A DNA stretch of 64,000 nucleotides from the NCBI RefSeq assembly GCF_001625215.2, contig NC_030389.2, positions 32,601,454 to 32,665,453 on the forward strand, written 5' to 3'. A program made the translations under genes and the position numbers. This document shows, one piece after another, positions 3,363 through 28,261 of this stretch. The notes under the pieces are model-generated. The model was not told where the DNA came from. It saw only the letters and a list, made by a program, of their open reading frames with translations, and ran no database searches. How positions within the stretch are numbered: position 1 is the first letter of the stretch; each line of letters begins with the position of its first letter. The stretch is from Daucus carota subsp. sativus. Taxonomy: Eukaryota; Streptophyta; Magnoliopsida; Apiales; Apiaceae.

Positions 3363-3419
<57 letters not shown>
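3363..3419. repeat. (TA)n between two nested elements
   Basis: About 28 TA units separate the 1.6 kb element from the giant MULE. It is part of the same host microsatellite. Confidence 0.95.
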
Positions 3420-3422
<3 letters not shown>

Positions 3423-3525
3423 CCACTCTATGGAGAATCAGTTTATGTGGAGAACCATGGAGACCCCTTATCCAGCCCTTAAAATTTTAATATTAATCCA
3501 ACGGCTGATATTAATTTTGATATAA
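3420..3525. repeat. Left terminal inverted repeat of the giant element
   Basis: It contains CTATGGAGAATCA, TTATGTGGAGAACC and CCAACGGCTG, which pair with the right end. Similarity is imperfect with short indels. Confidence 0.7.
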
Positions 3526-3732
3526 CATATAAAAACAGAAATCAACTAGTCAAAAACAAACACGGCGTGACCGTTATACACACACCTATACACACGACTG
3601 AAGAGAGAGAGAGAGAGAGAGAGAGAGAGCAAGAGAAAGAGAACAAAGGAAATTCGACCGAGCGCGTGATTTCTGGCGAGCAAGAGAAGGCGGATTTCAA
3701 TCAGAGATTACGAATCACAAACACGATACAGA

Positions 3733-6700
3733 ATGCTGGGAAAAGGTAACCGAAATTGACGATTTCAGCTTGTTTTTACACTCGATTGTATTGTTTTTAC
3801 TGATTCTGTAATAGAACCTCAGTATAATAATTTTGCGAATGTTTTGTTATAATTTGAGCTTGATTTGACTTTGATTTGATGTGGCATGTGTGTTTATGCT
3901 TCTAAAATCGAGTCGATTAAGGAATTTATAAGTTTAGGTTTAAGAAGCTATGATTCTATTATAGAAACACAGATATATTAAGTGTTTAATCATTAATACC
4001 TAATTAACATAATGATTCTATTAATTTTTTTAAGCTATAGAGTCAATTTGAATATGCTTCACTTTTGTCAAAAGCATCAGGAATGTAGAACTGGTTCTAC
4101 AGTAGAGTCATTAGATTAGAAATTCTCAGAGCTAGGTATTATGTGAAAAACAAATGATTCTGTGATAGAGTCAATGTAATATGTTGTAATTTGTTTTTGT
4201 GAAAACATCAGGACTTTAGATCTGGTTCTACAGTGGAGTCATTTCATCAGTAATCCTGACAGCTATGTGTTATGTGTAAAACAATGTTTCTGTGATAGAG
4301 TCAATTTGATTTGTTGTAATTTGGTTATTTGAAAGAATCAGGAATGTAGAACTGGTTCTACAGTAGAGTCATTAGATTAGAAATCCACAGAGCTAGGTAT
4401 TATGTGAAAAACAAATGATTCTGTGATAGAGTCAATGTAATATGTTGTAATTTGTTTTTGTGAAAACATCAGGACTTTAGATCTGGTTCTACAGTGGAGT
4501 CATTTCATCAGTAATCCTGACAGCTATGTGTTATGTGTAAAACAATGTTTCTGTGATAGAGTCAATTTGATTTGTTGTAATTTGGTTATTTGAAAGCATC
4601 AGGAATGTAGAACTGGTTCTAAAGTAGAGTCATTAGATTAGAAATCCTCAGAGCTAGGTATTATGTGAAAAACAAATAATTCTGTGATAGAGTCTATGTA
4701 ATATGTTGTAATTTGTTTTTTTGAAAGCATCAGGACTTTAGATCTGGTTCTACACTGGAGTCATTTCATCAGTAATCCTGATAGCTATGTATAGTGTGAA
4801 AAAAAAGGATTCTGTGGTAGAGTCAATTTGATTTGTTGTTTTTTTGTTTTGTAAGATTATCAGAAATGTTTAACTGGTTCTACAATAGAGTAATTGTATT
4901 AGTAATCCTCAGAGCTATGTTTTTTGTGAAAGACAATGATTCAGTAACAGAGTCAATTAGAATTGCTGTAATTTGCTTTTATAATGAAACAGAATTGTAG
5001 ATATGGTTCTACAGTGGAGTCATTATATTAGTAATGATTATAGATATGTTTTATATGGAAAACAATGATTTTGTGATAGTGTAAATTGCATATCACTGTA
5101 ATTTATCAGGATTGTAATGCATCAGGATTATAATGTATCTGTAGTTGTTTCTATTAAATATTTTCAACACACTGACTGTATAATACATCGCAGGACTTAA
5201 AATAAAATCCGGAAAGAAGAGTGGAAGCAAAGCATCAGGACAGAATAAAAATAAAGGAAAACGACTACGAATCATCTGTAGAACACGTCATGAAGGACAA
5301 CTGGACACAAAAAATTTTGATGAGTATATGAGGTAAATTATTTGGCACATTATAACTATTAGGCAGTTTGGTAATTTTGGTAACCTATAACATGTTTGTT
5401 ATAGGTTGATTTTGAAGATTATACCAGAAGAAAGGAAGACAGGATGTTCATTTTTCGACCCTATGTTCTTCATATCATATATGGATGCAGTTAAAAAGGC
5501 AAAGAAAAAAGATTCTACAGCAATTGAGAAAAGCAATGTGTGGAAGTGGATAAAGAAGCAAAAGATATTTGCTTGCAGATATGTTTTTGTTCCCATCTGC
5601 CAAAGGTATATAACAAAAACGTAAGACCTATAAATTATTTTACTGCTCCTAATGCACTAACTATAAGAATGTGGGTTTAATCATTTGACAGTAATCATTG
5701 GAATCTTCTCATACTCTGTAACTTGGGAGAAGATTTGGAGATGAATGAAAAAAGTCCATGTATGCTGTTATTGGACTCACTTCAAGAAGCAGAACCAAAT
5801 AAACTAGAACCGTGCATCAAACAGTACATTCTCTATTTGATTAGTATTTTAGATTTTAATGATTTATTTATGATGACTGTGTTGTTTTAATAGGAAATTT
5901 TTTATGCAGATTTGTGTACCAAATGTATAAGAATGAGTCAGTACAAGGAACTGATGATGTTTTCCAGTTCAATTTGAGTATTCCAATGGTTCCTCAACAG
6001 GATGACGGTGAAAAATGTGGATACTATGTTCTTTACTATATGTTCAAGTTTTTGATGTCTTGTCCAGAAAACTTCAACATTAATGAGCATGGTGGCTTTG
6101 TAAGTATATATTATTATTTAATTCTACTATTTATAATATATTTTTGTTAACAAATAACAACCAAATTAAAATGTTTAACAGATGAATAGCAGTTGGTTCA
6201 CGGAGGAAGAGATGAACAACTTTTTCAACAATCTATCATCAGAGAAATTGCATACTGACCAAATGCAAGCTTCAGAAGACATTATTGTGGTCAAGGAAAA
6301 GAGTATGCAAAATTCAATCTCATTAATTTAGAATAATATAATCACTTTGTAGTTTGTGTTGTATTACAATTGTGGTCTTTGTTGATGCATAGATCTTTCA
6401 AGTAATATGGAAGACGATGGCCAAAATGTCGATAATGAAATTGCTGCTGAAGAAATTGAAAAACTTTCTAAAGATGAAGAAGAGGCTGAGATGGTGGTAC
6501 AATGTGAACCTATTCGTTCACTAGTTGTGTACACTCCAGAGAGCTCACAGGAGCAGCAAGAACCCAACCAACCAACACCACCTGCATGTAAACTTCAATT
6601 AGAATAATATTTTTTATATTGTATAATAAATAGTGCTATCCAGATTTCTTATGTCTAACACTGTTTGTTTTTGTAAACAGCTGAAACAATTGCCACTCAT

Positions 6701-9529
6701 GAAAAAGATGGCAAGGAAAAGCTGGCTGCTGCTGCACCTTCTGTGAGAAAATCTCCAAGGCTACAACCTATAAAAGAAGATGAAGAAGATTTCTCTATTC
6801 ATATTGTCGACCCTGAGGGAGGAGCAAATGCAGAGAAGGGACCAGCAGAAAAAGCACAAAGAAAAGTAAGGGCGACAAAGAATGAAGGTGTCAATAAAAG
6901 GAAAGCCGTAGAAGAGGTACATAGTTACACTATAACAGTACTTGTTCATTGTTCATCCCATTTTACAACAGTAGACATAAAAAATATACATGGTTTCTAT
7001 TGTATAGTACAGTTACACATTTGTAAAAACATTTAAATGTCTAATTCTGTAACATAAGTAAAATAGTGCCAATTTTTTAATAATTATAGTTGGTTCCACT
7101 TTAGAAGCAAAATTAATGATTACTGATGAATACATCAGGATTACTGATGAGCGCATCGGGATTACTGATGACTGCATCAGGATTACTGATAGTCATCATC
7201 TCAGGTTTACATTCAACAGTAGCACTGTTGAGCTATTATTCTAACATGAACTTTAAAAATATTTGATTCATACGGATCATAATGATTACTAATGAGTACA
7301 TCAGTATTGCTGATGAGTTCATCAGGATTACTGATGAGTGCATCAGGATTACTGATAGTAATCATCTCAGGTTTACATTCCACAGTAGAACTGTTGAGCT
7401 ATGTTCTAACATGAACTTTAAAAATATTTGATACAGGTACAACATAATAAGGAAAAGAAATTGAAGAAAAAGGTGGAAGCAGAGAATGAAGATGAAGAAG
7501 TGGAAGAAGAAGAAGAAAAAGATGATGATGAGAAACCAAAAAAGATTTTAATCCGTGCTTATCCATCAACATTTTCAAAAACAATCTCAAGGTTGTCTGA
7601 AGCTCAAAGGCAGTGGGTCAAATCTGCTGGGTTTGGTGCACTCCTTCATTTTACTCTTGGTGAGGAACTGCCACACAAGACAATAGTTAATTGCTTATGG
7701 TGGTTCGAGCACAATAAATGTGAGTTTGGTCTATTCCCAAATCGGAATCTTAAAATAACAGAGGATGATGTTTTTGACATAATTGGTCTACCCCAAGGGA
7801 AATTGGATGTTAAACTTGAAGATTCTAAAGATAAAATCCAAAGCTGGGGCAAACAATTTAAAGAAAGGCAGCCAAGCAGGATCACTGAAAAGATGTTGCG
7901 TGAAAAGATTGCAGAGTCTCGTGATGCCGATGAACATTTCAAGCAGAACTTCATGATTCTGATGGCTAACCTTTTCATCAGAACAGATAAAACGTCCTTC
8001 GTTTGCCCCAAAATCCTGAGGTTCAGTGGTAATTTTGACAATGCAAGAGACTACAATTGGTGCAAACTTGTGATACAAAATTTGAAAGAGGCTCATGAAC
8101 AATGGTGGAATGATCCAAAAACACAATACTACACTGGTTGTTTTGTTTTTCTTCTTGTAAGACACCTTGAAACATTTGATACTCTTTTTTTACTATATAT
8201 GTATAACTTCTGCCATCGTATCTTATGACTTTCTATTTTGTCTGTAGTACTTTTATCTAGCTAGGACAAGCCATCCTGATGTGAGAGTGAAGAAAACATG
8301 GCCTGCCTTTGTTGGCTGGAAGAATTCATGCATTGATGACAGAGCAAAGAGGGAGGGTCTTGATAATAATTTTGGTCATGGAGATATTGTAAGTAGATAG
8401 TCTATATTCTTTCTACATATAGTCATGAATATAAAAAATGCCAATTATTTATATAATTATGCAGGTTCCAGAATTTGAAACTCCTGATGAAAGCAAACAA
8501 AATGATGTGAACTCTGAACAGTACAAGGTATAAAAATAATAAAAAATGAAGATGATTCTATAGTAGAACCACCATATTATATATAACTGTTTTTGATCAT
8601 GTATCCTTTTTAACTTGAGTTTTTGTTTATTTCCATAAATAAATGAATATAAATGATGTTTTTATTCTATAATACAGGGTGGGAACAGCAACTTCACCAC
8701 ACCTAAAGAAACATTGAAGGGCGTAGGACCCAGTCGGCTGTTTTCTCCACAAGACAATGTTGATGCATCAATATTGTCAATTGAAAGAGATGTTGAACAG
8801 AATCACAATAGCACTGAGGTGCTCACAGAGGATGTAAGAAAATTTATTAGAATCAAGTAATTTACTATAGATTCATAACTATGTGCAAGTACTAACATAC
8901 ATTAATGAAACTAGGAGATATCGTCAAGATTACAGCATCATTTATCACAAATGGAAAAGCTGAAGAAAGAATTTGGTGAAACACTTGACAAGGGGAAACA
9001 GCTGTTCCCAGAAAGTGATAAAATGAAAGAATATGAACAGAGGTTTGAAGAGATGACAACAGGATGGTGAAAGATTTAAATAATACTTTTACTCCATAAC
9101 TTTCTGAACATAACTTGTTTAGATAGATTCTTAGAATTCTTTTTTACTCTTTGGCAAAACAGTATTGATAAAGGCTGGGATTTTTTCACATACAATGACT
9201 GGAAAACATTTGACATTTTAATGCTCCCGGAAAATGAAAGGGCTTTTAATAAGATGCACGATATAGATGACTTTTTAGATGATTTAAAATTAGGGGGTCA
9301 GGTGGTTGATAGTAATATTTACACAAAACATATTACTAGGAATGAGCCAAGCTATGCTGCATATGGACTCAACAATCAGCTGAAAAGGGTACTCAAACCA
9401 ACTGATCATCAGAAATCTCCATTCAAAATCCGAGCGATTGATCTCAACACACAAAGGTTCAGCAAAGATGAAGAAGAAGTATTTCATATCTGTCAGGATT
9501 TTACATATCTGTCAGTATTTCGATCCTGA
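3733..9529 (+). CDS. ULP/SUMO-protease-like (C48) protein fused to a MULE-associated domain, about 941 aa, 14 exons
   Basis: The gene model joins 3733-3745, 5194-5332, 5405-5605, 5692-5823, 5910-6099, 6182-6302, 6393-6587, 6681-6916, 7437-8156, 8248-8388, 8465-8527, 8678-8833, 8915-9066 and 9163-9529. Every junction is GT-AG and in phase with no stop. Residues about 50-240 are a Ulp1-type cysteine protease with its triad visible: His120 (SNHWNLLIL), Asp146 (CMLLLDSL), Gln192 and Cys198 (EKCGYYVLYY). An acidic and basic low-complexity linker follows (about 260-440). Next comes a helical region (SEAQRQWVKSAGFGALL) and a C-terminal SPFKIR...FSKDEEEVF segment. Both resemble parts that precede the protease in ULP-bearing (Kaonashi-type) MULE proteins, so the order is unusual. 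The family cleaves SUMO/ubiquitin-like conjugates; its role in the element is unknown. The 5' UTR starts just inside the TIR and has a (GA)n tract. Confidence 0.75.
3960..5095. repeat. Intronic minisatellite, 130-bp units in 261-bp pairs
   Basis: GGTTCTACAGT-type words recur at 4093, 4224, 4354, 4615 (variant), 4746, 4876 and 5005, spaced 129-131 bp apart. Alternate units are more alike, so 4093, 4354 and 4615 are 261 bp apart, giving a two-unit higher-order repeat. The array fills most of intron 1 of the ULP-like gene. Confidence 0.85.
7085..7436. repeat. Two 176-bp repeats ending at a splice acceptor
   Basis: This lies in intron 8 of the ULP-like gene. TCAGGTTTACATTC recurs at 7201 and 7377, and AACTTTAAAAATATTTGAT recurs before each unit end. 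Only the second copy ends in ACAG and is used as acceptor. Units are rich in ATCAGGATTACTGATGA words. Confidence 0.75.
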
Positions 9530-9975
9530 CAGTATTTCATATCTGTCAGTTTACTCATCAAACATGATTCTCTTATAGAATCAAATTTAACATTATCATT
9601 ATTTTAATAATAAAAGTATTTCACAATAAACAAAAAATTCATGGTCCTACTATTGAATCAAATTAACATCAGTATTTAGTTCTTTAATAGAATCATAATC
9701 AAAAATATCATTATTTCATAACATTTTATTAAAAATGTTAGTTCTCTTGTAAGAGCTATGATTATCATTATTTTATTATTACTTGTTTTATGTTTTATTA
9801 CATCATACAGTATACCATTGGCTTTTATACTTAATCAACAACAATAGATTAAAATAAATTATTCAAAAAGACAACATAACAAAAAAGATTAGATGCAATC
9901 AAACATTCATTTTTCATTAATAATAATATATTTAAAAAAGAAGACAGTACATAAAGGAAGCCCTATCTAGCCCTA
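9530..9975. other. Spacer inside the giant element
   Basis: There is no gene here. It carries repeated CTGTCAGTATTTCG/ATCCTGACAG words (9500-9550) and several copies of the GATTCT..T.TAGAATC motif (about 9565, 9645, 9690). It separates the convergent ends of the ULP-like gene and the 104-aa gene. Confidence 0.6.
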
Positions 9976-10290
9976 TCAACTAGAAGACTCTTCCTCTGCC
10001 TTCTTCTCCTCCTCCTCCTGCTTGTGGAGGATACTGGACATCATCCCCGCGAATCGAATGATCCATTCGCGGCGTCTGATGGCAGCAAGCCTCCTTGCCT
10101 CAGCCTCTTCACGGAGGCGCTCCTCATGCAGGTAACAGTTCATAGTGAGAAACTGGACCTCGAGATGTGTCTCGAAGTCCATTTCTTCAACAACCTCATC
10201 AGGGAGGCTGAGAACATGGTAGCGAACACCCCAAACAGTGACGCTGAAGCAGCGCTGGCAGATGCGAACGGAACCGTCAGAGAGAGACAT
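9976..10290 (-). CDS. Orphan 104-aa protein of the giant element
   Basis: The single-exon ORF starts at the ATG at 10290. The N-terminal part has a short Cys pair (RICQRC) and a compact segment with a V-W-G-V-R-Y core. The middle (DFETHLEVQFLTMNCYLHEE) leads into a charged helix rich in Glu/Arg with coiled-coil character, ending in a poly-Glu/Lys/Ser tail. No family was recognised. It has its own TATA box 90 nt upstream, and its amphipathic, biased composition looks coding rather than random. In position it is internal and antisense to the flanking + genes. It could be an accessory transposition protein, but nothing in the sequence shows that. Confidence 0.55.
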   Translation of the reverse strand: MSLSDGSVRICQRCFSVTVWGVRYHVLSLPDEVVEEMDFETHLEVQFLTMNCYLHEERLREEAEARRLAAIRRREWIIRFAGMMSSILHKQEEEEKKAEEESSS

Positions 10291-10382
10291 TCTCAAAACA
10301 AAAAAGGGTTGGAGAAGAAGATGAAAGGTTTTAGAGAAGAAAGGTTTTCTGATATGAGTGTTACAGTAGTGTTACATGCATG

Positions 10383-10391
10383 CCTTTTATA
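10383..10391 (-). promoter_or_regulatory. TATA box of the 104-aa gene
   Basis: The complement reads TATAAAAGG, followed by GCATGCATG, about 93 nt upstream of the ATG at 10290. Confidence 0.6.
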
Positions 10392-10722
10392 GAATAGTGT
10401 ATTAAAGAACTGAAGAGACATTTATTTAAAAGGAGGCGGAACATTTAATCAATACGTACCTATATTATTGGGAAGTAGCATGAATACTGATGCAAGTAAT
10501 TATGATTCCGTAACAGAAGCAAAATTATGATTTTCATTTTCATCCAACAACCGTTCATATTATCCATGATTTAAATTAGTAATTATAAATAAAACACCTA
10601 ATTTAATAAAAACCATGTATGATTTTATTTAGTTTTAGAAACTTATCTTTCTTAAAACAAAAAAAAACACAAAAAATTATTAACAATTGCAATAATATTT
10701 AAGTTTAAATAATAAAATATAT

Positions 10723-11375
10723 AGTACGAATTAATTATTCTAAAACCCAAACCATAAACCCCAAATGTTAACGATTTTAAATTTATTTATTCCGCCTACG
10801 TCTCGGCTTCAGGGCCTTCGGCCCTTCAGCCTCGTCTTAATTAGGGTTTAGGCTCGAGGGAGTAGGGCCGGTAGGCCCTACACCCTCAATCCTAAACCCT
10901 AACCGTCGGGCAATTTAATATACAGTACGAATTAATTATTCTAAAACCCAAACCATAAACCCCAAATGTTAACGATTTTAAATTTATTTATTCCGCCTAC
11001 GTCTCGGCTTCAGGGCCTTCGGCCCTTCAGCCTCGCCTTAATTAGGGTTTAGGCTCGAGGGAGTAGGGCCTACCGGCCCTACACCCTCAATCCTAAACCC
11101 TAACCGGCGGGCAATTTAATATACAGTACGAATTAATTATTCTAAAACCCAAACCATAAACCCCAAATGTTAACGATTTTAAATTTATTTATTCCGCCTA
11201 CGTCTCGGCTTCAGGGCCTTCGGCCCTTCAGCCTCGCCTTAATTAGGGTTTAGGCTCGAGGGAGTAGGGCCTACCGGCCCTACACCCTCAATCCTAAACC
11301 CTAACCGCCGGGCAATTTAATATACAGTACGAATTAATTATTCTAAAAACCAAACCATCAACACCAAATGTTAAC
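10723..11375. repeat. 201-bp tandem repeat with GC-rich hairpins and telomere-like words
   Basis: AGTACGAATTAATTATTCTAAAA recurs at 10723, 10924, 11125 and 11326, exactly 201 bp apart, giving three full units and a partial fourth. Each unit has AT-rich sequence followed by a GC-rich core containing GGGCCTTCGGCCC and GGGCC(4 nt)GGCCC hairpins, plus AACCCTAA/TTAGGGTTTAGG telomere-like words. The GC-rich core contrasts sharply with the AT-rich surroundings. Confidence 0.9.
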
Positions 11376-11773
11376 GATTGTAAATTAATTTTATTAGACT
11401 GGTTTCTTGCCTGTAAGACTAAACTTATTTACCAAATGCTAAAAATAATTATTACAAAAAATTCATTAAATAATATTTATTTAAAATTTAAATTTAAGTA
11501 ATAAATTAAGAATTTCTTTCCCTTAATCAAATAATTCAAAACAAACAAAATTGCGCTAATTTTAAAAAAAACCAAGAAGCGGGAAAACAAAACAGCATTT
11601 ATCAGAAAGTACAGAACAAACTTAACACACTCTTTCATAACTTCCACTCCACTACACAATCGGCGGTTTTCAAATTCAATTATCCAACTAAGCTTTCTCA
11701 TCTCTTTCAGATTAACATCTTCAATCTTCAAATTCTACAAAAATCTAAATCACATTTCACTAACTTCATCAAA

Positions 11774-14700
11774 ATGCAGACCTCTCCTTTCATGAACACC
11801 AAGTGTTCGATAAAAGGGTACGAGTTTGCCCCAAACAATTTCTGTGCTCCTTTAGAGAAATCTGTGTTTCCTGATGATTTTCATATCATTATAGACTTTT
11901 TGACTTGTAGTCCAATTTATTACGCATTGACTCAACCTACTAAGGTTACTTTCAAAAGTGTAATGCAAATTTGGAGCACTTTAAAGTTTATAAATGGAGG
12001 CCAAGCAGAGAAATCAAAATTGATGTTCAATTACAATGGCAAGGAGTATGTCATCACACCGGAGGTGGTGGAGGAAGCACTGCATCTTCCAAAATTAGAA
12101 GAAAAAACTCCAGAATATATTACAGCTGATGTGCTTATTGCGTTTTTGAAATTACTGGGATATAATGGTGATCCTGACAGGATTGGAGTACTGCAGAGAT
12201 CTCGCCTGAAGAAGCAATGGAACTTGTACTTTGATTGTATCACTAGATGCTTCTTGAACAAGGTTTCAAACTTTGATGCTATTCCATCAGGATCACTTGA
12301 AATTGGGTATTCTCTTATCTACAACACTGTGTTTGATTATGGAAATTTCATCCTTAACTTGATAGGTACTAGAAAAGAGGATAAGCTTAAGTATATCTGT
12401 TATGTTAGGTTTTTACAGTTGATTTTCAATCATATGTGCCCCTCTGCTGATTTTCCTGATGACGAATTAGTACCTATTAGTAAGATTTCAGAAACAGGGA
12501 TTAAAGCCATAATAAATGGTGATAAGAAAAATAATTTAGAAGGTGAATGTTTCATTCCTAAAGAAGTGTGGCAATTTCTTAGCACAAACATGGCAGAAAA
12601 ATATAATTTGGTTACTACTAGTGTTCCATCATCAACTACTGATATGGCACTAGACAGTTCACCCATTCGTCAAAGCCCAAAGAGAAAAATCAAGGACATC
12701 TCCAAACAGAAATCAAAAGTAAAAAAAAAAGAAGGTTGTGGCATCAGGAATGGCATCAGATAATAAAAAAAAAGAGATGGACTCAAGAGATACACAAATG
12801 CAGAAACCTCCTAGAAAAAGGAAGCTTAGAATTCTGGATGTTGATTCAGATCGTGATGAAAGCACACCTCCTTCAGTGAATATCAGCAATACAGAAACGA
12901 TTGATCCTGCAAATTCTGGGAAAAAGGCAGAGACCAATGTGTATAAGAGGAAAAGACTTGTGAAGTGCTCAAACTACGTTCCTACATTACAATTCAATGA
13001 ACTTGTTGAGGAAAAAGTCAATCCCCTTCCTGAACTTGATGAAATGATGATTCAAGACATGAACAAGACAACTGAAATTGCTAACACTGAAGAACGGATT
13101 ATGACGCAAGAGGTTTCAACTCAATTACAGCAAGCAGCTGGAAATTTGGATATGGTCATTTATCAACCTCTAATCAGTGTGAACCCTATTCATGAAGTTC
13201 CTGTAGAGAAAAATCTTCAAAGTAAGAATTTAAATATCAAGCATGATTTTCATTAAATGGTTTATTATATAGAATGGATAATTTTATATGATTCAATGCA
13301 TACTCTTTTTGCCAAACCGTTATTAGTATCAAATTTTATATGTATTTATAGATTTTTTCATATGATTCTATAGTATAATCATCTCATTAAGATAATTTCA
13401 TTCTATGTCAGTTCCTGATGAGAATATTCATCAGGAACTGGTAACAGCTCATCACTTTTGGAGAATAAAAATTTATATACAATTTATAGATTCTGTAATA
13501 GAAGCATTCATATAAAGAATTTTGATTCTATCATATGATCATATAATATAATCACCTAATTAAGATAATTTCATTCTATGTCAGCTCCTGATGAGAATAA
13601 TCATCAGCAACTGTTAACAGCTCATCAGTATTGGAGAATACAAATCTATAAACAAATTATAGATTCTGTAATAGAAGCATTCATATACAGAATTTTATTT
13701 CTATCATATGATTCTATAATATAATCATCTAATTAAGATAATTCCATTTTATGTCAGTTCCTGATGAGATTAATCATCAGGAATTGTTAACATCTCATCA
13801 GTATTGTAGAATACAAATTTAAAAAAAATTTATAGATTCTGTAATAGAAGCATTCATATACAGAATTTTGATTCTATCATATGACTCTATAATATAATCA
13901 TCTAATTAAGATAATTTCACTCTGTCAGTTCCTGATGAGAGTAATCATCAGGAACTGTTAACAGCTCATCAGTATTGGAGAATAAAAATTTAAATACAAT
14001 TTATAGATTCTGTAATAGAAGCATTCATATACAGAATTATGATTGTATTATATGATTCTATAACATAATCATCTCATTAACATAATTTCATTCTATGTCA
14101 GTTCCTGATGAAGCTACAACTACAACAAAAACGGACAAAAATGACAAGGGAAAAAATCCTATTGTCGAAGATGAAGATGTCCATGACAATTCTGATTCCT
14201 CTGAAGATGAGTCTGACCCAGAGTTGGCTGAAGTTCTTAGAATTTCAAGGAAAAGTATTTCTGGAAGCAGCAACAAATTTATGCAAGAGCAAATATCTTT
14301 TGACAGCTCAGACTTAAAGAAAAAAATGGAAGCAACAACAATACTACACCAAGGTCTTAGGTCTGAGCTCAAAGATTTGCATACTGTAACAGATAAGCTT
14401 CAAGAAAATATCAAATCTTCAGAAAACACTTTCGCAACAAAAAGTGAGATGAGCACTTTGTCGATGAGAGTAGATAGTCTTGAATCAAAGTTCACAGATA
14501 TTACAGGGAAACTTGATGAAATTCCTCAATTGCTCAAAGGCAAGAAGGTAGTTACTCCAGAGGGCATTGAAAAGCGTGATTCAGGAGTTCAAACTGAAAA
14601 GGAAATAAACACTGATGCTGCTGAACCAGTTTGTTGGGATTTAATCCCATGGTCTTATCAACATAATGGTGATCAAGCAATTGATAAAGACGAGGGGGAA

Positions 14701-17700
14701 CATGAGAAGCTTATGGAAAATGATGAAAATGTCCAGAAAGGTACTAATCATTCCTTTAATTCTGACTTGTATTTTTGTGATAAGTTGTAGAAGATATATG
14801 CGTGTGTATGTGTTTTATAGGTTTGGTATGATTCTACATGCATATATGTTTTTAAGATTTAATTATTTTCATAATTTAGATTCTATATACAAATTATCTA
14901 ATCAATTTGATTTATGTGTGTTATTTAAAAGTTTAGATTGTGAATCATATATTTTAAAATTATGGTTCCAAGGTAGAGGCATTAATGTTCTTTTGTGAAA
15001 TAATTTATGTATGAAATTAATGTTTTTTTTTGTTTTAAAATTAATGTTCAGTAATGCAATCAAAATTTGTGTAGTTGTGCTTCTACAATAGATGAATATG
15101 TATATCATGCCTTTATTAAAAATTGATATTGAGGTTAACGTAGTTTGTGTATAAATTCAAGGTACTAATGATGATGACAAGATAATTTATAATACTGAAG
15201 AGGCCGCCAATTATTTTCAAAAATTCAAAACCAATGATGGAGAAGAAGTCTTGCTGTATGCAAACAGTGAGAAGGCTCTGAATATAAATGAACAAAGAGC
15301 AACAACTGTTGCTATGGCTGAAGATAATCCAGACATGAGTGAGGAAGAATACAGGATACTTCAACAAGAAAGGTATAATGAATTGCAAGCTGGAGAAGGT
15401 CAGACCGTCAGAAGGATTCAGGAAGAGGGAAAGGGAGAGGGAGAGGAAGAGGAAGAGGTCAGAAACAAATCAAACAAAATGATTCAAATGAGGAACCAGT
15501 TTGTTTGGATTTAATCAGTTATCAAAAAAATGATGATCAAAAAATTGATAAAGACGAGGGGGAAAATGAGAAGGTTCTCCTCAAAGGTACTAATTATTCC
15601 TTGAATTTTGACTTGTATTTTTGTGAAAAGTTGTATAAGATATATGCGTATGTATGTGTTTTATTGGTTTGGTATGATTCTACATGCATATATGTTTTTA
15701 AGACTGAATTTTTTTTCATAATATAGATTCTATATACAAATTATCTAATCAATTTGATTTATGTGTGTTATTTAAAAGTTTAGGGTGTTAATCATATTCT
15801 TTAAAATTATGGTTCCAGGGTAGAAGCATTAATGTTCTTTTGTGATATAATTTTTGTCTGAAATTAATGCTTTTTTTTTTTAAATTAATGTTCTGTAATG
15901 CAATCAAAATTTGTGTAGTTGTGCTTCTACGATAGATGCATATGTATATCATGCCTTTATTAAAAATTGATGTTGAGGTTAACGTAGTTTGTGTATAAAT
16001 TCAAGGTACTAACGATGATTACAAGATAATTGATAATGCTGAAGAGGCCGCCAAGTATTTTCAGAAATTCAAAACTAATGATGGAGAAGAAGTCTTGCTG
16101 TATGCAAACAGTGAGAAGGCTTTAAATATAAATGAACAAAGAGCAACAATTATTGCTATAGCTGAAGATAATGCAGACTTGACTGAGGAAGAATATAGGA
16201 GACTTCAAGAAGAAAGGTATAAAGAATTGAAAGCTGGAGAAGGTCAGGAGGACTCAGGGAGAGGTAAAGGGAGAGGAAGAGGAAGAGGAAGAGGAAGAGG
16301 AAAAGGAAGAGGAAGAGGTCAGAAACAGATCGAAGAAAATGAATCAAATGAGGAAACAAGTACTACAATAAAGATCGCAACTCAAGAAAATCCAATTCCT
16401 TCAACATCAATTCCAATTCCAAAAGTTGTTCAATATAATGATGCCTTAGAAGTTGCAATTGATGAAGAAGAACAGAATAAATTGATTAGAAATAGAAAAT
16501 CAAAAGATTCAAAACAGGTAAACCATAATATTTAAATTCTTGATGAGTTGACAGTTACTAATGGACATATCAATCTAGAATATATTCCTGATGCTAATAA
16601 TATGTTATTCATTGCACTTGGCGTACAGCAAAATGCTTCTCTTCAAAATCCTGATATGAACTCAGATCCTAAGAAGACAATTTCTAAAGATATTTTGAAT
16701 GCTGGTGAAGAAATTGTCCCTGAAATTGTTCCTCATGCTGAAACTGAATTAGGCAATGATCCTAAAATTCAGGTAAATCCAATTATTCATTTTACTTTCA
16801 AATAGCAGATGGTTATTGACTATAATGAATCAATGCTGATTTGTAAAAAATTATGATTCTGTGTTAGAGTCATTTGGAAAACATTCCATTCCTTTAAGTA
16901 ATGATACATGAATATCTTCTAGAATCATATTTAGCATCATCAGTATTTCCTTTCCTGACAGTATTTGGATACTGACTGTGTTTCACAGCTATCAAATTAA
17001 GATCATCAGTATTTTGATCTTGGCAGTATTTTATATATGCATTTAACTCTTAAGACATGATTCTCTTATAGAACTAGATTGAAATCATCAGTATTTAACT
17101 CTTAAGACATAATTCTCTTATTAAATCAAATTGACATCATCAGTATTTTCAGTCCTGACATTATTTCACTCAATCCTGACATTATTTAACTCTTAATACA
17201 TAATTCTCTTATATAATCAAATTGAAATCATCAGTATTTCCAATCCTGACAGTACTTCACTCAATCCTCACAGTATTTCACTCTTAAGACATGATTCTCT
17301 TATAGAATGAAATTGACATCAACAGTATTTCCAATCCTGACAGTATTCCTGATACTAATAATATGTTGTTCATTGCACTTGGCGTACAGCAAAATGCTTC
17401 TCTTCAAAATCCTGAAATAACCTCAGATCCTGAAAAGCCAATTTCTAAAGATATTTTGGATGCTGGTGAAGAAATTGTCCATGAAAATGTTCCTCATGCT
17501 GAAACTGAGTTGGGCAATGATCCTGAAATTCAGGTAAAATACAATTATTAAAACTTGGCACGTTTAATGACAACTTATTTGCTAATGATTTGGTAACTGA
17601 TTTAATTCCCAAAAATATTTCTGATGCTGAAACTGTTTTAGTAATTGGACTTGTCATACAGGCAAAAACTGTCAAAGTAATTGAAGATGTGACTTCAGTT

Positions 17701-18882
17701 GCTCACTACAAAGTTACTGACGCGGTACAACAAAATGTTAAAGATTCTGGGAATATTCATGGTGTTATTAAGGATGCTGACTACATGAAAAGTATTGAGA
17801 CCATAGTGGCTTATGTATATCTAGAAAGCTATTATGAAGACGATGATGTAGAAGTGAAAAAAGTTGACAAACGAGAAAGAGAAATTCAAAGAAAGGTTCG
17901 GGCGAATGAAAATTTTTATCTGCGTAAAGTGTTGAACTCAAATCGCAAGATCTGGGATGATCCTTCTAGGCTGAAATCTGACCTCCCAATGAGTCACTGC
18001 CCCAGAGCAGAAAAGATAATAAAAGATAGAAGGCGTAGAAACAGAGAAATGAATAATGACAGCATGGCTCAGAGAAAAATAAACTTCATCTCTGGAGGAA
18101 TGATGACTGAAATGCCTTCTATTAAAGGAGCAACCTCAAAGATTAGAATTTCTGACTTAAAATTGATTAGTCATTCCACAAAAGCTGGACTTGGTTCTCA
18201 TTTAATTCAATATGAGAATGCAATCTACATTGATCCATGTCCCCTTACAGATAGTCCTGATGAGAAGTTAACTGCAGAACATCTTGAGAAAATTGAAAGT
18301 GTAGCCATTGTTGAGGATCACTGGGATACAAAGGACATAAAGCAGAAAATGATATATTTTCTACATGATAATACAACCAGGGTGCTGCCAATTGAAGATC
18401 TCTTAATCAAGTCCAATAAGGAGCTAAAGTTTGTACAGTATTTACTAAGAGTGACAAATGAAACAACAGCCCTATGGTCTAGGATGATCCTGAATACTAT
18501 AAGAAGAAGAATGGTGGATGGAGATGGATCTTATACTGGTGAATACACTCCAAGTTATACTGATTACTCGCTGAAAGAAGTCCCTATGCAAAAGAAGAGT
18601 GCAAAGGTTTCGGATTCAGAAGGTTCAAAATATATTCATCTTAATCCAAGAGGGACAATGCCTACCTATATCAGTTTTGATGAAAACAAGTTTCAATTCA
18701 GTACAAACACAACCATCAGAGCAGCTCTATTTCAAATAGATGATGATGATGAAGAACAGAAAATCTTGAAAGACAAACTGATCAAATATCTGAAATCAAG
18801 GGAGGATAAACGTCTTGCAAGATTTCTAAGTGAAAGCAATGTTTTTCAAGTTGTAAATGAACAAAGAACAGAAGATCTATAA
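11774..18882 (+). CDS. Large multi-exon gene with plant-transposon/gag-like N-terminal domain
   Basis: The model joins 11774-13221, 14102-14740, 15162-15586, 16006-16517, 16629-16772, 17390-17533 and 17662-18882. Junctions are GT-AG and phase-compatible. Residues about 20-290 (including FHIIIDFLTCSPIYYALTQP and VMQIWSTLKFINGG) match the style of the putative plant transposon/gag-like domain common in asterid retroelements. The middle is acidic with a predicted coiled coil, then Gly-Arg repeats (16255-16320). The last exon encodes about 400 residues, basic then acidic, which I do not recognise. There are two reading-frame breaks: at an A10 run (about 12721-12730) and in the purine tract of exon 3 (15400-15457). 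Exon 3 is a copy of exon 4 and can be skipped in phase. Breaks in homopolymer and hexamer tracts could be assembly errors or decay. Function is unknown. Confidence 0.6.
13360..14101. repeat. 173-bp tandem repeat in intron 1 of the gag-like gene
   Basis: TTCTATGTCAG(T/C)TCCTGATGA recurs with TCCTGATG-phase positions 13411, 13584, 13757, 13928 and 14101, i.e. every 171-173 bp. The last copy supplies the splice acceptor and the first codons of exon 2. Each unit carries a CCTGATGAGA..TCATCAGGA inverted repeat. Confidence 0.9.
14660..16350. repeat. 864-bp tandem exon-intron duplication
   Basis: TTGATAAAGACGAGGGGGAA occurs at 14681 and 15545. The following donor (AAAG/GTACTAAT), about 420-bp intron, acceptor (AATTCAAG/GTACTAA) and downstream exon are all duplicated at high identity. 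The duplication ends near the GA-rich tract. Confidence 0.9.
16530..17535. repeat. Duplicated 144-bp exon with a short-repeat intron between copies
   Basis: The exons at 16629-16772 and 17390-17533 are equal in length and nearly identical; the homology also covers about 65 bp upstream (ATTCCTGATRCTAATAATATG). The 617-bp intron between them is made of ATCATCAGTATTT, TCCTGACAGTATTTCACTC and AAGACATGATTCTCTTATAGAA words in irregular repeats. Confidence 0.85.
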
Positions 18883-19575
18883 ATCATTCTTTGTCTCCAT
18901 CTGTAAGTATTATTTTTCATCATTAATTTTTGCATCAGTAATTATCATTGTTAATTTGTGCATCTTGGTCCCTTGATAGAAGCAATAAAATAAAATCATA
19001 TATTTGTACTTGTTCATACTTAACCATATTCATAATAAAAGATATTTTGAAAAATAAAACATAAAAATAGACATATAAAGTCTGATTCTATAACATAACC
19101 AAATATTGCCAGTTTTTTTTTAATAAATGTAGTTGATTCCACTTTAGAAGCAAAAAAATTAAATAAAATAATATTCTATATTATTCATGTGTTTCATCAG
19201 TATTTGATTACTACATCAGTATTTTATAATTCATATACTATGATGCAACTATAGAGTCAATTGGAAATCACTGTCTCTAGAATAGTTTTTTGTGCATCAG
19301 GAATAGATACATCAGTATTTCTCATCAGTATTTTTCATCAGTATTACAACATGACAAGTCAACTGACTCTACATTAGAATCAAAAAATCAACTCCAACAC
19401 AATGATACTTGAAAAATCAATACACAAAATTAATCTAATAAAAAAAATACTGATTATATCAAAAATATTAAAAATCTTCACATTCTGAATCGCCAAACAA
19501 CAATATTTCTTCATCACAAAATACTAACAACACAAAACATATCTACATTTTGAGAGTAACTACTAACTATACATA
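18883..19575. other. Convergent spacer inside the giant element
   Basis: It lies between the 3' ends of the gag-like gene (+) and the transposase gene (-). There is no ORF of note. It has several ATCAGTATTT words (19195-19345) and copies of the GATTCTATA(A/G)..AGAATC-type motif (about 19083, 19133, 19370). Confidence 0.6.
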
Positions 19576-22500
19576 CTAACTAGTCATATTTTGAGAGTAG
19601 AAGCTAGGACTAAGAGATACTTGTTTATTAGGAATAGTTGGAATCTGCTGATTAACAAGGAGTTTCTTCGGACAGTTGCGTGAATCATGATACCCAAGAG
19701 TATGACAAAATTTACATGTCCTGGTTGGTCTTTTCTTCCCATCACGACTTAACTCTGCACCACCAACAATTCTTTTACGACATCCTTTGTTGTTACTTGG
19801 CAGTGGTGGAAGTACATTACTTGAACCTGAAGGCCTCACACCAAAAATCTCTTCCAGCATATCATCTTTTGTTGCCGGACGTTTATCAAATTTCTCTTCA
19901 ACTCTAATCCTCAAGCACTTCATCTCATCCAACAAATACTCTAAACCTTTCAGGTTATTGCAAACATTATCAACACAAGCTTGATACTCTGTCCATATCC
20001 TCATTGCAATTTCTCTACTGATATGCCCATCAGTAGCACATTCGCTTTCATCAGTAAACTTCAATTTGCAAAATCTCTCTGCATTCCTCATCCAACGCTT
20101 ACATATGAACTGATGTGGGATTTTATTAACACCCCACAAACTCAAACAATAGAAACAATGACGACACAGATAGCCTACTCTGGTAAACAGCTTGCAGGAA
20201 CAGCTAATATCATATGTTGACAAACAAAATTCAACCTCAAACAACTTACCATTCAAGCTCTTATCACAAAGTAAATATTTATTCACGCCATCAGTAACAA
20301 TTGGTTGCCCACCAAGACTGATATGAAAGCAACTGGCTTTTATTTGTTTTTGAACCTTATAAAACATACTTCGAGTATAAAGGCAAGCTGCATGCTTTTC
20401 AATAGCCTTCTCAGTAATAGATTGTGGAATACAATTCTTGTCAGTGGTGTTCAATTTGTTTTGGTCATGAATTTGTTTGTCAATAGCACTCTCATAACAC
20501 AAGTAGAACTCTGAAAGAGTATCCCCTTTTTGGACGAAATGATTAAAGTAGAAATTACTGCTCTCTGACCTTGAGGTTGTTCTCAATAAGGCTCCCATTG
20601 GCTTGTCCGCAAAGAAAGCAGGAATCCATGATTCCCTCATTGCATATATCTCTTTCAACCAGACATGTTCACTTAATCCAAATTCCTTAAGCACATCATC
20701 CCAACCTTTTTCAAACTCAGGAACAGTCAAATGTGAGGACCAAACAAACTTATTGAGTTTTTCCATAAATCCCGTTTCTGCACAGAACACAGGACCAACC
20801 TACATTCACAATATCAAAAACAACTGATAAGGGACCATGCAGAGAATTAATCATAAATAACAAAAAATTAACTTAAAATAATACAATATATGATTCTGAA
20901 GTGGAATTTTTTCCTAAAACATTTTCATACAAATATGTAATAAGAGAAATCAATAAATTCTACAATAGAATCAAGGATGATTATACCTTGGCAGGGAACT
21001 TTTGCATTATATGCCACATACAATAACGATGAATAGAATGTGGGAATGTGTTAGCAATTGCAACTTTCATCCCAAGACACTGATTAGTTATTATACATTT
21101 TGGTGGACGGGCAAATGCTTGAAGAAACATCTCACAAGCCCACGTGAAATTTGTTGCATCCTCATGATTTAGTAATGCAGAAGCAAAAGTAACACTCTTC
21201 CAATGATTATCTACTCCAATAAAAGGCACGAATACCATTCCATACCTTTCACACCAAAAAAATTGTAAAATTAGATAACAATGAAATTATTCAAAAAACT
21301 CATAATTTGCAAAATAAAATTAAACTGCATATCAAACTTACTTATTGGTACGGTATGTTGCATCAAAAGATACAACATCACCAAAAACTTCATAACTCCT
21401 ACGTCCTTGAATATCAGCCCAAAAAAGACGGGTAAGATGACCGTTTGAATCCGTCTGATATTCGAAAAAAAATCCTCCATCTGATACGTCCCTTTTGTTT
21501 TGAAACTTCTGTATCAGCATATCAGAATCATGTTTGCCAATATATAATTTTATATCTCTCATCCAGTTTTGAAAATCAACAGCGGTTGCCCCAACTTCAG
21601 AGTAGGATCCTGATATCGACTTGAACAAATTGTGAGCTCTATACGAGCCTATGTTTGATTTCGCAGCATCTAGAACAAATCGGCGCTGAAATGAAGTCAT
21701 AGATCGATTACAAAGTAGAAATTCTTTTCCTGATGGCGATGCTAGACGATGGTTGTGACCTTCGATAAATGACGAAATAACATACGCATTGAAACCATTG
21801 TACTTGAGAATAATTTTTGCTCGACAGTCACATCTCTTTGTCACCGTCTTCCTCCTCTTGACTTGCAGTTGAACACTATTTGATGCATGAGATGATTCTG
21901 AATTAACATCAACATCCTTTGTCATGGATGTATCGTGATGCCCTCCTTTAGAACAAATTATGTACTTGGTAACTATAATACCATTCCTGACTTTTTGTGT
22001 TGATTTACGAACCTCAAATCCACCATCTCTGCCATAATCAGTATAGAACTTAAAAGCCGACTCAATGTCTTTAAACAGTTGACCAGGATATGGTTTAAGT
22101 TTGTCATCAGAAACTTTAGGATTCCACACTTTAGAGCTTCTACTAATTGACTCATCAAAACCTTCTAAGCAATCCTCAACAAAATCATGAACAGTAGTAT
22201 CACAAACATTATCAACAACATCAATACAAACAGAATTGCCTGCAAAAATAATAAAAAAATATGTCATCATATAACATTCTAACATATACAGAATTTTGAA
22301 TATATCATATGATTCTATAATATAATAATCTCATTAATATAATTTCATTCTATGTCAAATCCTGATGAGAATAATCATCAGGACCTGATAACAACTCATC
22401 AGTATTGAAGAATAAAAATATATATTCAATTTATAGATTCTATAATAGAAGCATTCATATACAAAATTTTGATTGTATTATATGATTCTATAACATAATC

Positions 22501-22975
22501 ATCTCATTAACATAATTTTATTCTATATCATTTCCTGATGAGAATAATCATCAGGAACTGGTAACAACTCATCAGTATCTACAAACAACAACAATATTAA
22601 ACATCAAAAAATGAATACAAAAAGTATAAATTTGAAAGTTCCTAGCTGTTTCTTACAATAATCATCAGTATCTCATATAATCTCATCAACATTATCTATC
22701 AGCAACAACACACACGGATAATTCGGAAAAGCTTATATGATTCTACAGCGGCAACAAAATTTAATAACAAAATCTTATTCGATTCTATAGTAGCACCATA
22801 AAAATCAAATTTTTATCTTCAAAAACTTATTTCAGTATTATTTATGCATAAAGTAGATCTATTGATTCAAACCTGATGATGATTGAATGTCAGCAACTTC
22901 GCGAAAATTAGCTTGATTTGAGGAAAACTGAGCTTGATTCGAGCAAAACACAGTTTGATTTGACGAAATCTCCAT
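19576..22975 (-). CDS. FAR1/FHY3-type MULE transposase, 827 aa, 4 exons
   Basis: Exons on the minus strand are 22975-22873, 22239-21342, 21245-20987 and 20799-19576. All are GT-AG, in phase and without internal stop. A FAR1-type zinc-binding DNA-binding domain spans residues about 95-200 (Cys130, Cys171, Cys173 and GHNH196-198). The MULE transposase core follows with first catalytic Asp327 (SFDATYRTNKYG) and Glu499 (TTSRSESSN). The block usually TDQD reads TNQC, so the second expected Asp is Asn388. A SWIM zinc finger (Cys620-x-Cys622...Cys632-x-His634) and a C-terminal CCHC-like knuckle (CKFCHTLGYHDSRNC) complete the protein. It would bind and cut the TIRs. The 5' UTR with a (GA)n-type tract lies just inside the right TIR. 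Length is typical of FAR1-family proteins. Confidence 0.9.
22290..22610. repeat. Second array of the 173-bp repeat, in transposase intron 1
   Basis: Two units, with TCCTGATGAGAATAATCATCAGG at 22360 and 22533 (173 bp apart), are homologous to the 13360-14101 array and lie in the same plus-strand orientation, hence antisense to the transposase transcript. Confidence 0.85.
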
Positions 22976-23221
22976 ATCCGATAGCTTCAATCCACTGACA
23001 AGGACGAAGTTAGAGAAACAACCGACGATTCAGCGCGAGGATGAAGAGAGATAGTATAAGAGATAGAAAGAAAGCGAGATGGAGAGCAGCGATCGAAATC
23101 GCGCGAGATCAGAAATCGCGCGAGATAGAGAGAGAGAGAGAGAGAGATGAAATAACGGCAAATAACGAAAATAACGGACAGAGCGAGAGAGAGAAAGAGT
23201 CAGTTTCCTAATTGAACATTG

Positions 23222-23323
23222 TTTATGAACAGCCGTTAGATTTGATTTAGATCTAACGGTCCAGATTAATGGAGGGGGTTCTCCACAAGACTCCATATAA
23301 GATGGTTCTCCATAGAACAAAGG

Positions 23324-23325
<2 letters not shown>
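23222..23325. repeat. Right terminal inverted repeat of the giant element
   Basis: The complement reads CTATGGAGAACCATC, TTATATGGAG, TGTGGAGAACCCCC and TAACGGCTG, matching the left end. An extra inverted pair, CCGTTAGATCTAAAT / GATTTAGATCTAACGG, lies inside it. Confidence 0.7.

Positions 23326-23413
<88 letters not shown>
23326..23413. repeat. (TA)44 microsatellite
   Basis: This is the right border of the giant element, continuing into the right arm of the split Stowaway MITE. Confidence 0.95.
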
Positions 23414-23490: not shown

Positions 23491-25021
23491 CAAATTATAT
23501 ACAATTTATGTTTTTTTGTGTTTTCTAACTTTTCTTATTAGAGATGTTCGAGATTGATTATATTCAACAATAATATTAGAATATTTGTTTTTATTCGACA
23601 AAATTTGTTTCGTTTTGAATTAAGAAAAATAATCATAAATATGAAAGTAGATTTCAGTTGATTTATAGGATAAGATTATGTTTCTTTGTGATTTAACGAT
23701 ACTTAGTTATCTTGTATATGATTCGACGGATCATAATTATTGATTGTAATGATATCATACACCAAATTATGTTCCTCGCAAGTATATAATTTGGCTAGTT
23801 TGATATTAGTTTGTCTAGAAATGTGAATCAGAGATTCTATAAAATCATTACTTATGGTTCTAGTATTGTTTATACAGTCCACTGTAACAACAACAAATGC
23901 AGGCAAACATTCATACTAATGCAGGCATGCAGCAGGTATCTTTAGTTCTGAGTTATTAGCCAAAACGGATTTCTAATGAGCATCTAAGGAAAACACGTTT
24001 AACTATTTTTTTGAACTATGCTAATTGATCTTCTATACTAGTTGATTTTTAACCAGACCATGCACTGAAATGGCCAGCCAAATTGACAACTGGATCGGAC
24101 CTTGCTACATAATATATCTCGATATCCTGTTATGGCCTTAAAACTATGATTGCGTTCATTTGGATGGAAATGAATAAGGAGAGAATGGTATGAATAATAT
24201 ATCTCGATATCCTGTTATGGCCTTAGTTTGTTATGTTCTATCCAAGCGAACGCAACTTGTACATTCTGATATGGCTACTCTTAGGATTACATTTTAACAT
24301 CAGTACTCTTAAGATTTAACGTGACTACTCTTAAGATTACATCAGTCAGTTATAGCAACCATGTCTCTGTCGATTCTGACCAGTACCCCAGTACAGTGTT
24401 TAAAGCACAGCTTCGGATCAAAATGTGGAGATGTACTCTCTACACTGGACCTCTGGACCAAAAGTAAAGAATAACTCGTACAACGTATTAGCAATCCGCC
24501 GCTTTAGTCCAATCATCAATCATGTACTCTCAACACTGGACCTCTGGACCAAAACTAAAAAGATTGAACTCTGAGACTCAAGAGGCTTTAAGCCAAGGCC
24601 AAAACTGTGGTAGAATGTATTAATAACTTGAAAGGCACAAATCGTCTTGCTAAATGCTACTCTGTTACACATGGTTTCCACATAAAGTTCGGCCTATAGT
24701 TTACAGAAGATGAAATGGCATTTAATCTAATTTCGCTTTTCACCAACTGATATTTGCTATTGAATTCCCTGCCGCTTTTTTTTTTTTTTTTTTTTTTAGG
24801 AACTTATGTTCCAAGGGGTTTGGTCATCATAAAATGTTGTACATCACACATACTTAATCAACAAATCTAGATCCTTATACTGTCCATAACTCGTAATTAC
24901 CTCATGCATGTTTCGGTAGAAATTCTTTATATTATATATATCAGCTTTCTCCTGATCTCTCTGCTTGCACAACTCAATTCTCTTATCCATAGATTTAACA
25001 CCCACGAAAGCATAATCATCG
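23491..25021. other. Spacer upstream of the first KCS gene, with local duplications
   Basis: No gene is supported. There is a 30-bp direct repeat (ATATATCTCGATATCCTGTT core) at 24111-24140 and 24196-24225. A second duplicated segment (ACACTGGACCTCTGGACCAAAA) lies near 24441 and 24541. A T-run of about 22 nt lies at about 24777-24798, perhaps an old poly(A) on the other strand. Confidence 0.6.
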
Positions 25022-26533: not shown

Positions 26534-28261
26534 TATGTAGATTTGACAATTAATTAAAGTACAGAAGAACTTGTATGAATATTCGTACATTCTACTCCAG
26601 TACTAAATATATAACCACGGTATTATGTTATTATGAACAATAAATAGAAATAAAACCCCAATAAAGCTAATTAACCAGATATTCAGATTCTGAGCCTCTT
26701 CTTATTACAACTTATGCACAACTTACCAAGTAGCTTAGCTTTACATAAACAACTCGCAACCTAAGTAGCCATGACTTTGCTCACTGCGTCAGTGTGTGTT
26801 GAATCTCTGCGCATTATGTTTAATGCTTCAACATTAATGTTTATTATTCTTATACTTGTTATTTGTCGTCTGCAGCCATATTTAGAAATCCAGAACAGTG
26901 AGGCAAATGTAATATTAGCTTGTATCATTTTGTCGCATAAGTTTATAAATAATACGGTATTGCATAACTGGTATAACAAGGGGTATGACGTAAAAAATAC
27001 TCGATAAATGTACTTAACGGGTACCATATTTGAAAAAGTCCCTAAATATGCCTTACTGATAAGATATTACTACAGAACTCTAAACTAACACCACCTTAAG
27101 CATCAGACTATGATAGATGAACCCCAACAGATGAAAAGGACTCCACAAAGCACTTTTAAAACTTACACGCCTGTTCAGTCTTGGGTATCCAGTCCCCTTT
27201 GAAAAAATTAAGGTCACGAAAGCATAGCTAAGATCAACTCTGTACGTACGTATCAAAAACAGTCCACCAAGTGCCAAATGCGCTGCTGCATATATATTGT
27301 TACAACCATAACTTTTCAATCTCAGTGGCAATCTCTGATATGTGTGATTTCCCTTCAGTGACGTTGTTTGCTGTCTGACAATATAAATCAAAGTGAAACA
27401 AATGCTATATTAGCACTGTTTTTGAACACTGTGGATAGATTGAACACATTCCACGTTCAAATTAAATTAACCTCATGCTCCTCCCGTGAATCTATCCACA
27501 GTGTTCACACACCCTCCATTCTCTCCTTGCAAATCTAAACTAGAAGAGATAAATCCCGGCATCTTACATATATGTTTGTTCCATCCTCCTACTCATGTCA
27601 TGTCCTTCAGAAATGTCCTAGAAAAGTTACCTTTCATATTCTTCGCTCCTCTCTCTTTCATCCTTCTGTATCACCCCTCTAATTTTCCGCACATTTGTCA
27701 TTCTTTCCACCAGATTAGGCAGTTTGAAATGAATAAATGATAATGACTCTTCTATCACATTGAGGGAGTTCGGCAGATCAGTCCCAAAATTCCAGCCAAA
27801 GAAACCAAACTAGTGAAATAGTTAGGTTTTTCAGTAGATAGTATCTTCTTACAGATATAAGGTGCATCTACAGCTATTAATTGCTAGTTCTGCATCAGGA
27901 CCATACAGATAAAGATTAACATTAGATAGTTAGCGCATACGTGTACTGGCTAGATTGAACTATTGACACAAAAATATCAACAGAAAACATTTAGCAGTGA
28001 ACTTTCTAGTTGACTGTCAACAAGACGAAACGAGCTCACAACAATCCTGTATTACTGTCCTTCGCATGTTGAGTTATGAGTGTACTGCACTGGACCGTTA
28101 CAACAGTCCAACCAACAAAGTGTGCATTGAGATATGTATGAGCTTCATTTACTAGACTTATCTACCAACATTAATTACCATGCTCGCAAGCCTTTATAGT
28201 CTGAAAGATCTTGTAGCCACACTGCACTGCTATCAAGTACACGATTCTTCAACTTTACAAA
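26534..28261. other. Spacer between the two KCS genes
   Basis: There is no convincing gene; the short ORFs here lack any recognisable feature. It holds the 3' region of copy 1, the hairpin at 27423-27507 and the promoter of copy 2. An upstream in-frame relic of the start region (CAAGTACACGATTCTTCAACTT, 28234 and again 28268) is a 34-bp direct repeat straddling the second KCS start. Confidence 0.6.
27423..27507. repeat. Perfect 19-bp inverted repeat (hairpin)
   Basis: TGAACACTGTGGATAGATT at 27423-27441 pairs exactly with AATCTATCCACAGTGTTCA at 27489-27507 across a 47-nt loop. It could be a MITE remnant or an RNA hairpin; the sequence does not decide. Confidence 0.7.

Follow-up and report, generated by a model that had tools for sequence, protein, structure and literature searches.

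The region from position 3420 to 23325 of a 64,000-nucleotide stretch of the carrot genome (Daucus carota subsp. sativus, contig NC_030389.2; G000:C9:32601454-32665453, here called the window) is a single, internally damaged copy of a Mutator-like element (MULE) of 20-25 kb with terminal inverted repeats (TIRs). Its anatomy shows insertion into TA microsatellites via a FAR1-type MULE transposase. Besides the transposase gene (gene T), the element carries a SUMO-protease-like gene (gene A), a 104-amino-acid (aa) frame and a gene C whose N-domain is predicted to resemble the VANC21 fold, and its noncoding parts hold arrays of two short motif classes. It is probable, if far from certain, that this is a damaged TA-targeting MULE carrying its own VANC-type anti-silencing module together with a ULP2-type SUMO step. 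In such a mechanism gene C, and perhaps also gene A with its KIU/VANC-like build, would bind the short motifs in the introns and spacers of the element, and the motif-bound protein would strip host silencing marks from its own family. The N-terminal ULP2-type protease of gene A, of host kind, would probably provide the deSUMOylation lost by the C-terminal ULP-like domain of the same gene.

The element is a single unit. In the 441,086,747 bases searched, the left end (3420-3640) gave 30 matches, 12 of them near full length at 90-100%, and the right end gave 43, of which 13 were long, at 81-100%. Every one of the 12 strong left ends (at least 90%) has a like-oriented right end as partner, producing 12 units that span 19.9 kb (the window copy), 22.8, 24.7, 21.8, 37.3, 28.8, 49.1, 22.4, 23.4, 22.8, 24.4 and 22.3 kb, and a single right end (C4:22465632) has no left partner. 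The TIRs of about 88 bp align with a score of 33, against a mean of 15 and a maximum of 25 in 500 shuffles. Sequence was compared for seven of the 11 other copies (30 kb from six and 20 kb from the seventh). Copies C3, C8, C2 and C4, which among those examined are the ones that reach their right end, align collinearly with the window along the whole element apart from insertions, and share its gene content and gene order; C5a and C9b extend past the stretch examined, and C6 is interrupted by a 14.5-kb insertion. The first-pass annotation had drawn one unit between these ends, far larger than MuDR, with a ULP-like protease at the left, a FAR1-type transposase at the right and the 104-aa frame between, and had looked to further copies with coinciding ends and genes; the copies and Pfam matches reported here bear all of this out. 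It did not include the targeting of TA microsatellites, the pair of motif arrays, the VANC-like fold predicted for gene C, the protease of ULP2 type at the front of gene A or the related domain of copia elements. Mixed gene content, and copia elements among the genomic relatives of gene C, could suggest several independent insertions between two similar ends. This is extremely improbable and is ruled out by the other copies through their end pairing and collinearity; moreover, both motifs described below occur across genes A, C and T, in introns or in spacers.

The microsatellite target is seen throughout the family: (TA)n adjoins eight of eight left ends examined, in some with GA or (GA)n between, and 12 of 12 right ends, while the diverged relative L043 has no TA flank in the roughly 35 bases seen at its left end. 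Since both flanks are (TA)n, a target-site duplication of 8-11 bp is indistinguishable. Such targeting is a known trait, and the nearest targeting relative is MuTAnT/AutoMuTAnT of Medicago, a (TA)n-flanked MULE with a Jittery-like transposase of 833 aa and small non-autonomous relatives (PMC4486113, as far as its available text goes). The carrot element shares the flanks, the small relatives and a transposase of similar size (827 aa); unlike AutoMuTAnT, which has 4,873 bp and a single open reading frame (ORF), it measures 20-25 kb and holds ULP, VANC-like and small genes as well as motif arrays. It is also like the carrot MiMs (miniature inverted-repeat transposable elements in microsatellites), which are TA-flanked and Mutator-related, three families being linked to putative autonomous elements in the accessible part of PMC8227079. 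That search used 4-kb flanks around transposases, so units of 20 kb would presumably have been missed.

Two motif classes were pointed to by 9-mers such as TCATCAGTA, found 22 times inside the element and never outside it. The palindrome TGRTTCT-N5-AGARYCA (at most one mismatch) gives 50 strand-matches where 0.23 are expected; its 30 sites are all noncoding, with none in 10,114 bp of exons and none in the 44,094 bp outside the element. CATCAGKA has 50 noncoding and 13 coding sites inside and four outside, and consecutive sites lie 21 bp apart seven times and 16 bp apart five times. Both motifs are numerous in the four collinear copies and near absent from the flanks of these (0 and 1). Family-specific short motifs in noncoding DNA, a mark of VANDAL/VANC systems, are therefore present as measured against 63 kb of flanks, which hold four CATCAGKA sites and one palindrome. 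Of the CATCAGKA sites in the C6 copy, nine lie in the element's own parts and two in the 14.5-kb insertion. Smaller relatives keep the palindrome while CATCAGKA is scarce in them (11 sites against 1 in L043, 5 against 0 in L030 and 2 against 1 in L029), so the two classes seem to have had separate histories. The exact VANC21 motif YAGTATTAY was rejected as an element motif, with three sites inside and one outside.

In C8, gene C keeps an open frame of 1,509 codons; in C2, C4 and the window copy it is frameshifted, in the last within a run of A; no whole join was achieved in C3, C5a and C9b. The predicted fold of its N-domain matched VANC21 in a search of the whole PDB. A PDB sequence search with the gene C profile found nothing at E<=10, a test weakened by the use of a whole-protein profile of 1,212 positions. 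The predicted structure of the C-domain was discarded at a pLDDT (predicted local distance difference test) of 42.

The same TA-targeting MULE could have motif arrays that are transposase-binding sites or replication-slippage repeats, and a gene C that is a nucleic-acid-binding passenger common with copia elements, with no anti-silencing; this is unlikely, if far from negligible. Several observations weigh on its side and against an anti-silencing module: the arrays include ordinary tandem repeats, the palindrome persists in the three smaller relatives named above, where no element genes were found, and the gene C domain stands after pol in copia of an abundant type. Transposase sites, however, usually lie near element ends, and the first 313 and last 350 bp are without either motif. 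The absence of palindromes from exons also argues against this reading, as does the fact that the VANC21 match arose from a search of the entire PDB.

The SUMO step is suggested by gene A. In the C8 copy it matches Peptidase_C48 (PF02902, 1.5e-18) in two stretches. At 35-50%, residues 1-252 resemble proteases of the ULP2 type from many plants (49 proteins, including a carrot one at 98%), in a search that admitted only proteins of about 139-441 aa and so favours stand-alone proteases. This N-terminal domain matches yeast Ulp2 (2.3e-10) and SENP7 by sequence, and the catalytic His, Asp, Gln and Cys, assigned by eye, are present. The C-terminal ULP-like part reads VDSG in all five copies with a readable exon (C3 has an indel there), whereas the Orobanche relative P0027 has QYDCG at this position and no N-terminal protease. 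We infer from this that the element's own ULP-like domain, now altered, received a host-type protease fused to its N-terminal side. The compact exon layout recurs in 11 of 12 family copies and in at least nine diverged loci at 40-54% (three matching exons in eight of them, two in the other). Together with a related short protein in Heracleum, this makes a recent origin of the fusion partner improbable. In a tree of the ULP domain from gene A and 24 of the 49 proteins, the element joins Heracleum P0071, both on long branches, so the tree does not single out a donor gene; candidate host protease genes on C1 and C3 have long introns.

Gene A is modelled as a single gene, and the annotated carrot protein P0025 covers both of its halves; other Daucus proteins match it at 88-94% across 48-65% of its length. 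One gene A exon resembles DUF1985 at E 0.035, below the cut-off, a match not listed for whole gene A or the six relatives scanned, and a PDB sequence search with this exon returned only four chance rows at E 1 or more. According to the available portion of PMC13317346, KIU-type VANC genes of MULEs (Kaonashi/KIU) carry a ULP1 domain. Gene A is built likewise, with a DUF1985-like region followed by a C-terminal domain of ULP1 type; it differs from Kaonashi/KIU in that VDSG replaces the Cys and that a second, ULP2-type protease with catalytic residues stands in front.

The window copy itself is damaged. The 941- and 827-codon readings of gene A and the transposase, which had been proposed as two fully open genes, are indeed open, and the 941 codons were reproduced exactly, but openness fails as a sign of intactness because the ULP gene lacks its 3' part, a conserved acidic residue is missing from the transposase and gene C carries a frameshift. 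The 941-codon reading spans the deletion junction 9481/9482 and ends at 9529 in sequence beyond it. The deletion is absent from all six other copies examined, of which the five besides C2 share 1.7 to 2.4 kb of the lost stretch, and gene A of other copies continues through five further exons. Of the five such copies modelled, C8 and C4 read through all 1,193 codons of gene A, C9b meets a single internal stop, and in C2 and C3 the frame is disrupted. The transposase (PF10551, 2.2e-25; PF03101, 2.3e-12) is open over 827 codons in the window copy, C8 and C4; C3 has 833 open codons and C2 a single internal stop. Only the window copy among the five has ITNQ, while C3, C8, C2 and C4 have ITDQ, whose Asp we take to be the second catalytic Asp of MULE transposases; judged by its sequence, the window transposase has lost this conserved acidic residue.

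Genes A and T have evolved under constraint, as read from pooled ratios of nonsynonymous to synonymous differences (pN/pS) of 0.27 for gene A (first 13 exons, five copies) and 0.35 for the transposase (five copies). Synonymous differences among transposase copies are 0.8-2.4%, which suggests that the family spread recently. The extra genes could nevertheless be decaying captured fragments of the Pack-MULE type without a role. The deletion, ITNQ and gene C frameshift of the window copy count in favour of this and against an anti-silencing module, as do the breakage of gene C in three of the four copies joined and the existence of a Pack-MULE relative with a GH1 fragment. Such decay is improbable in view of the pN/pS values and of the 1,193-, 1,509- and 827-codon frames that stand open together in copy C8. 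The relative in question, L043 (G000:C9:28080351-28089350), is 8.8 kb long and has family ends (left 80%, right 93%); its cargo is the GH1 fragment (6.4e-6) and a MutY-like fragment (EndIII_4Fe-2S 0.036, below the cut-off, partly by eye), so uptake of host DNA is possible for relatives of the element. Another unit of the same span (C9:28096602-28105434) starts 16 kb further on. CpG depletion and CpG transitions show past methylation of the copies. Used as a test of escape from methylation, this mutation footprint points to past methylation as against a permanently unmethylated history.

Relatives of gene C extend to the other transposon class. Among the 143 genomic matches listed for the gene C N-domain (3,474 candidates, 141 scored), 15 are at 98-100%, one is a 95% fragment and the others are at 38-56%, many of these in frames of about 1,200 codons. 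Matches at 51-55% (C2:10303076, 10381419, 25337313 and 25397328; C5:4959701 and 4981863) are perhaps sister families. In a Ty1/copia element of abundant type on C7 (G000:C7:41670201-41679000, two stretches, L044/L045), a gene C relative directly adjoins the end of pol (frame read by eye), so the domain is a post-pol ORF there. ACTCTGA occurs 11 times in the 2.2 kb before this ORF (0.67 expected), two of them within pol, and eight further times in the 3 kb after it; the background is three in 44 kb of the window outside the element. The 14.5-kb insertion in the C6 copy (L028/L027) is, by its frames, another copia with a post-pol ORF, whose match to the gene C N-domain profile is weak (16 bits, E 1.6e-6 in a set of only six sequences). 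It contains 21 GTCATACC sites against 0.25 expected, seven in each end resembling a long terminal repeat (partly duplicates) and seven between pol and the post-pol ORF, often as inverted pairs 21 bp apart, with none in four long coding stretches.

It is possible, though rather doubtful, that a VANC-like motif-reading anti-silencing module is common to the TA-targeting TIR MULE and to carrot Ty1/copia families, each family tagging its own noncoding DNA (with CATCAGKA and the palindrome, with ACTCTGA and with GTCATACC, respectively). In that case the MULE may use the proteins of genes A and C as readers of two motif classes and a captured host SUMO protease as their effector. The cross-class case is built on two copia examples, with one element each behind the GTCATACC and ACTCTGA counts. 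It is weakened by a mild excess of ACTCTGA in the second copia as well (11 sites, 3.3 expected, with a maximum of nine in 100 simulations), which speaks against clean family specificity.

The carrot element is like Arabidopsis VANDAL/VANC, as described in the parts of PMC5735166 and PMC10398659 available, in being a MULE with extra genes, noncoding motif arrays, a VANC21-like fold (predicted here) and repeated peptide blocks. It differs from them in having a transposase of FAR1 type, in targeting TA, in its two classes of motif with other sequences, and in its host-type ULP2 domain. VANDAL ends are non-TIR in the portion of PMC13317346 available, while TIRs are counted among the noncoding parts of VANDAL21 in that of PMC10398659; the carrot element has TIRs. 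It is not filed here as a VANDAL. Within the literature searched the lineage is little described, as the first-pass annotation had supposed: none of the titles concerned a VANC-like protein in copia or such a carrot MULE, a comparison at title level that leaves prior description possible. A 2022 study, known by title only, is said to concern anti-silencing in eudicots; VANC-like systems of other eudicots may have been described there already. If the proposal is true, sequence-specific anti-silencing would be a wider transposon strategy beyond Arabidopsis VANDALs, perhaps in both transposon classes, with proteins and DNA tags together in one crop genome. Co-evolution of reader protein and motif would then be testable with carrot methylomes, and candidate functions would be at hand for the 'putative plant transposon' domain after copia pol and for the ULP-like genes of MULEs.

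Table 1. Features of the carrot element, in window positions.
Feature	Position	Strand	Basis
(TA)28 target microsatellite, left flank	3364..3419	.	repeat scan
Element, one copy, 19.9 kb	3420..23325	.	genome-wide left/right end pairing
Left TIR, imperfect, about 88 bp	3420..3507	+	local alignment
Gene A, 14 modelled exons, 941 codons; SUMO protease domain of ULP2 type followed by DUF1985/KIU-like region; 3' part missing	3733..9529	+	
Gene A intron 1, where palindromes are densest: 17 palindrome sites, 9 CATCAGKA, 130/261-bp tandem repeat	3746..5193		
Gene A exons 3-6, N-terminal ULP catalytic residues SNHW, LLLDS, PQQ, EKCG	5405..6302	+	
Gene A intron: 9 CATCAGKA, 0 palindrome sites, 21-bp periodic	6917..7436		
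Junction of 2,433-bp deletion (reference: copy C2), private among 7 copies examined	9481..9482	.	
104-aa frame	9979..10296	-	open-frame list
201-bp tandem repeat, upstream of gene C	10716..11391	.	repeat scan
Gene C, 7 modelled exons; VANC21-like N-domain (predicted), coiled coil, duplicated middle exons, conserved C-domain	11774..18882	+	
Gene C intron 1: 10 CATCAGKA, 4 palindrome sites, 173-bp repeat	13222..14101		
Gene C intron: 5 CATCAGKA, 3 palindrome sites	16773..17389		
Spacer, genes C to T: 7 CATCAGKA, 2 palindrome sites	18883..19575		
FAR1/MULE transposase (gene T), 4 exons, 827 codons open, ITNQ for ITDQ	19576..22975	-	
Transposase intron 1: 7 CATCAGKA, 1 palindrome site	22240..22872		
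Right TIR	23230..23325	-	local alignment and family-wide right end
(TA)44 target microsatellite, right flank	23326..23413	.	repeat scan

The 104-aa frame is free of indels in five of six other copies and has many in C8; its best Pfam match, DUF5466 at 0.013, is below the cut-off, and no clear match was found. Copies C3, C4, C5a and C9b also have a 90-aa coiled-coil frame, which could not be found in the window copy or C2 and was not recovered in C8. The 201-bp repeat between the 104-aa gene and gene C has GC-rich inverted parts with a AAACCCTAA-like core and contains neither motif. Rfam (at gathering cut-offs) and tRNA scans gave no match. Outside the element, remnants of a reverse transcriptase of the long interspersed nuclear element type and of RNase H were recognized by eye at 44609-47710. 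To the right of the insertion, two adjacent open frames at 25016-29752 resemble 3-ketoacyl-CoA synthases by eye, placing the element beside genes.

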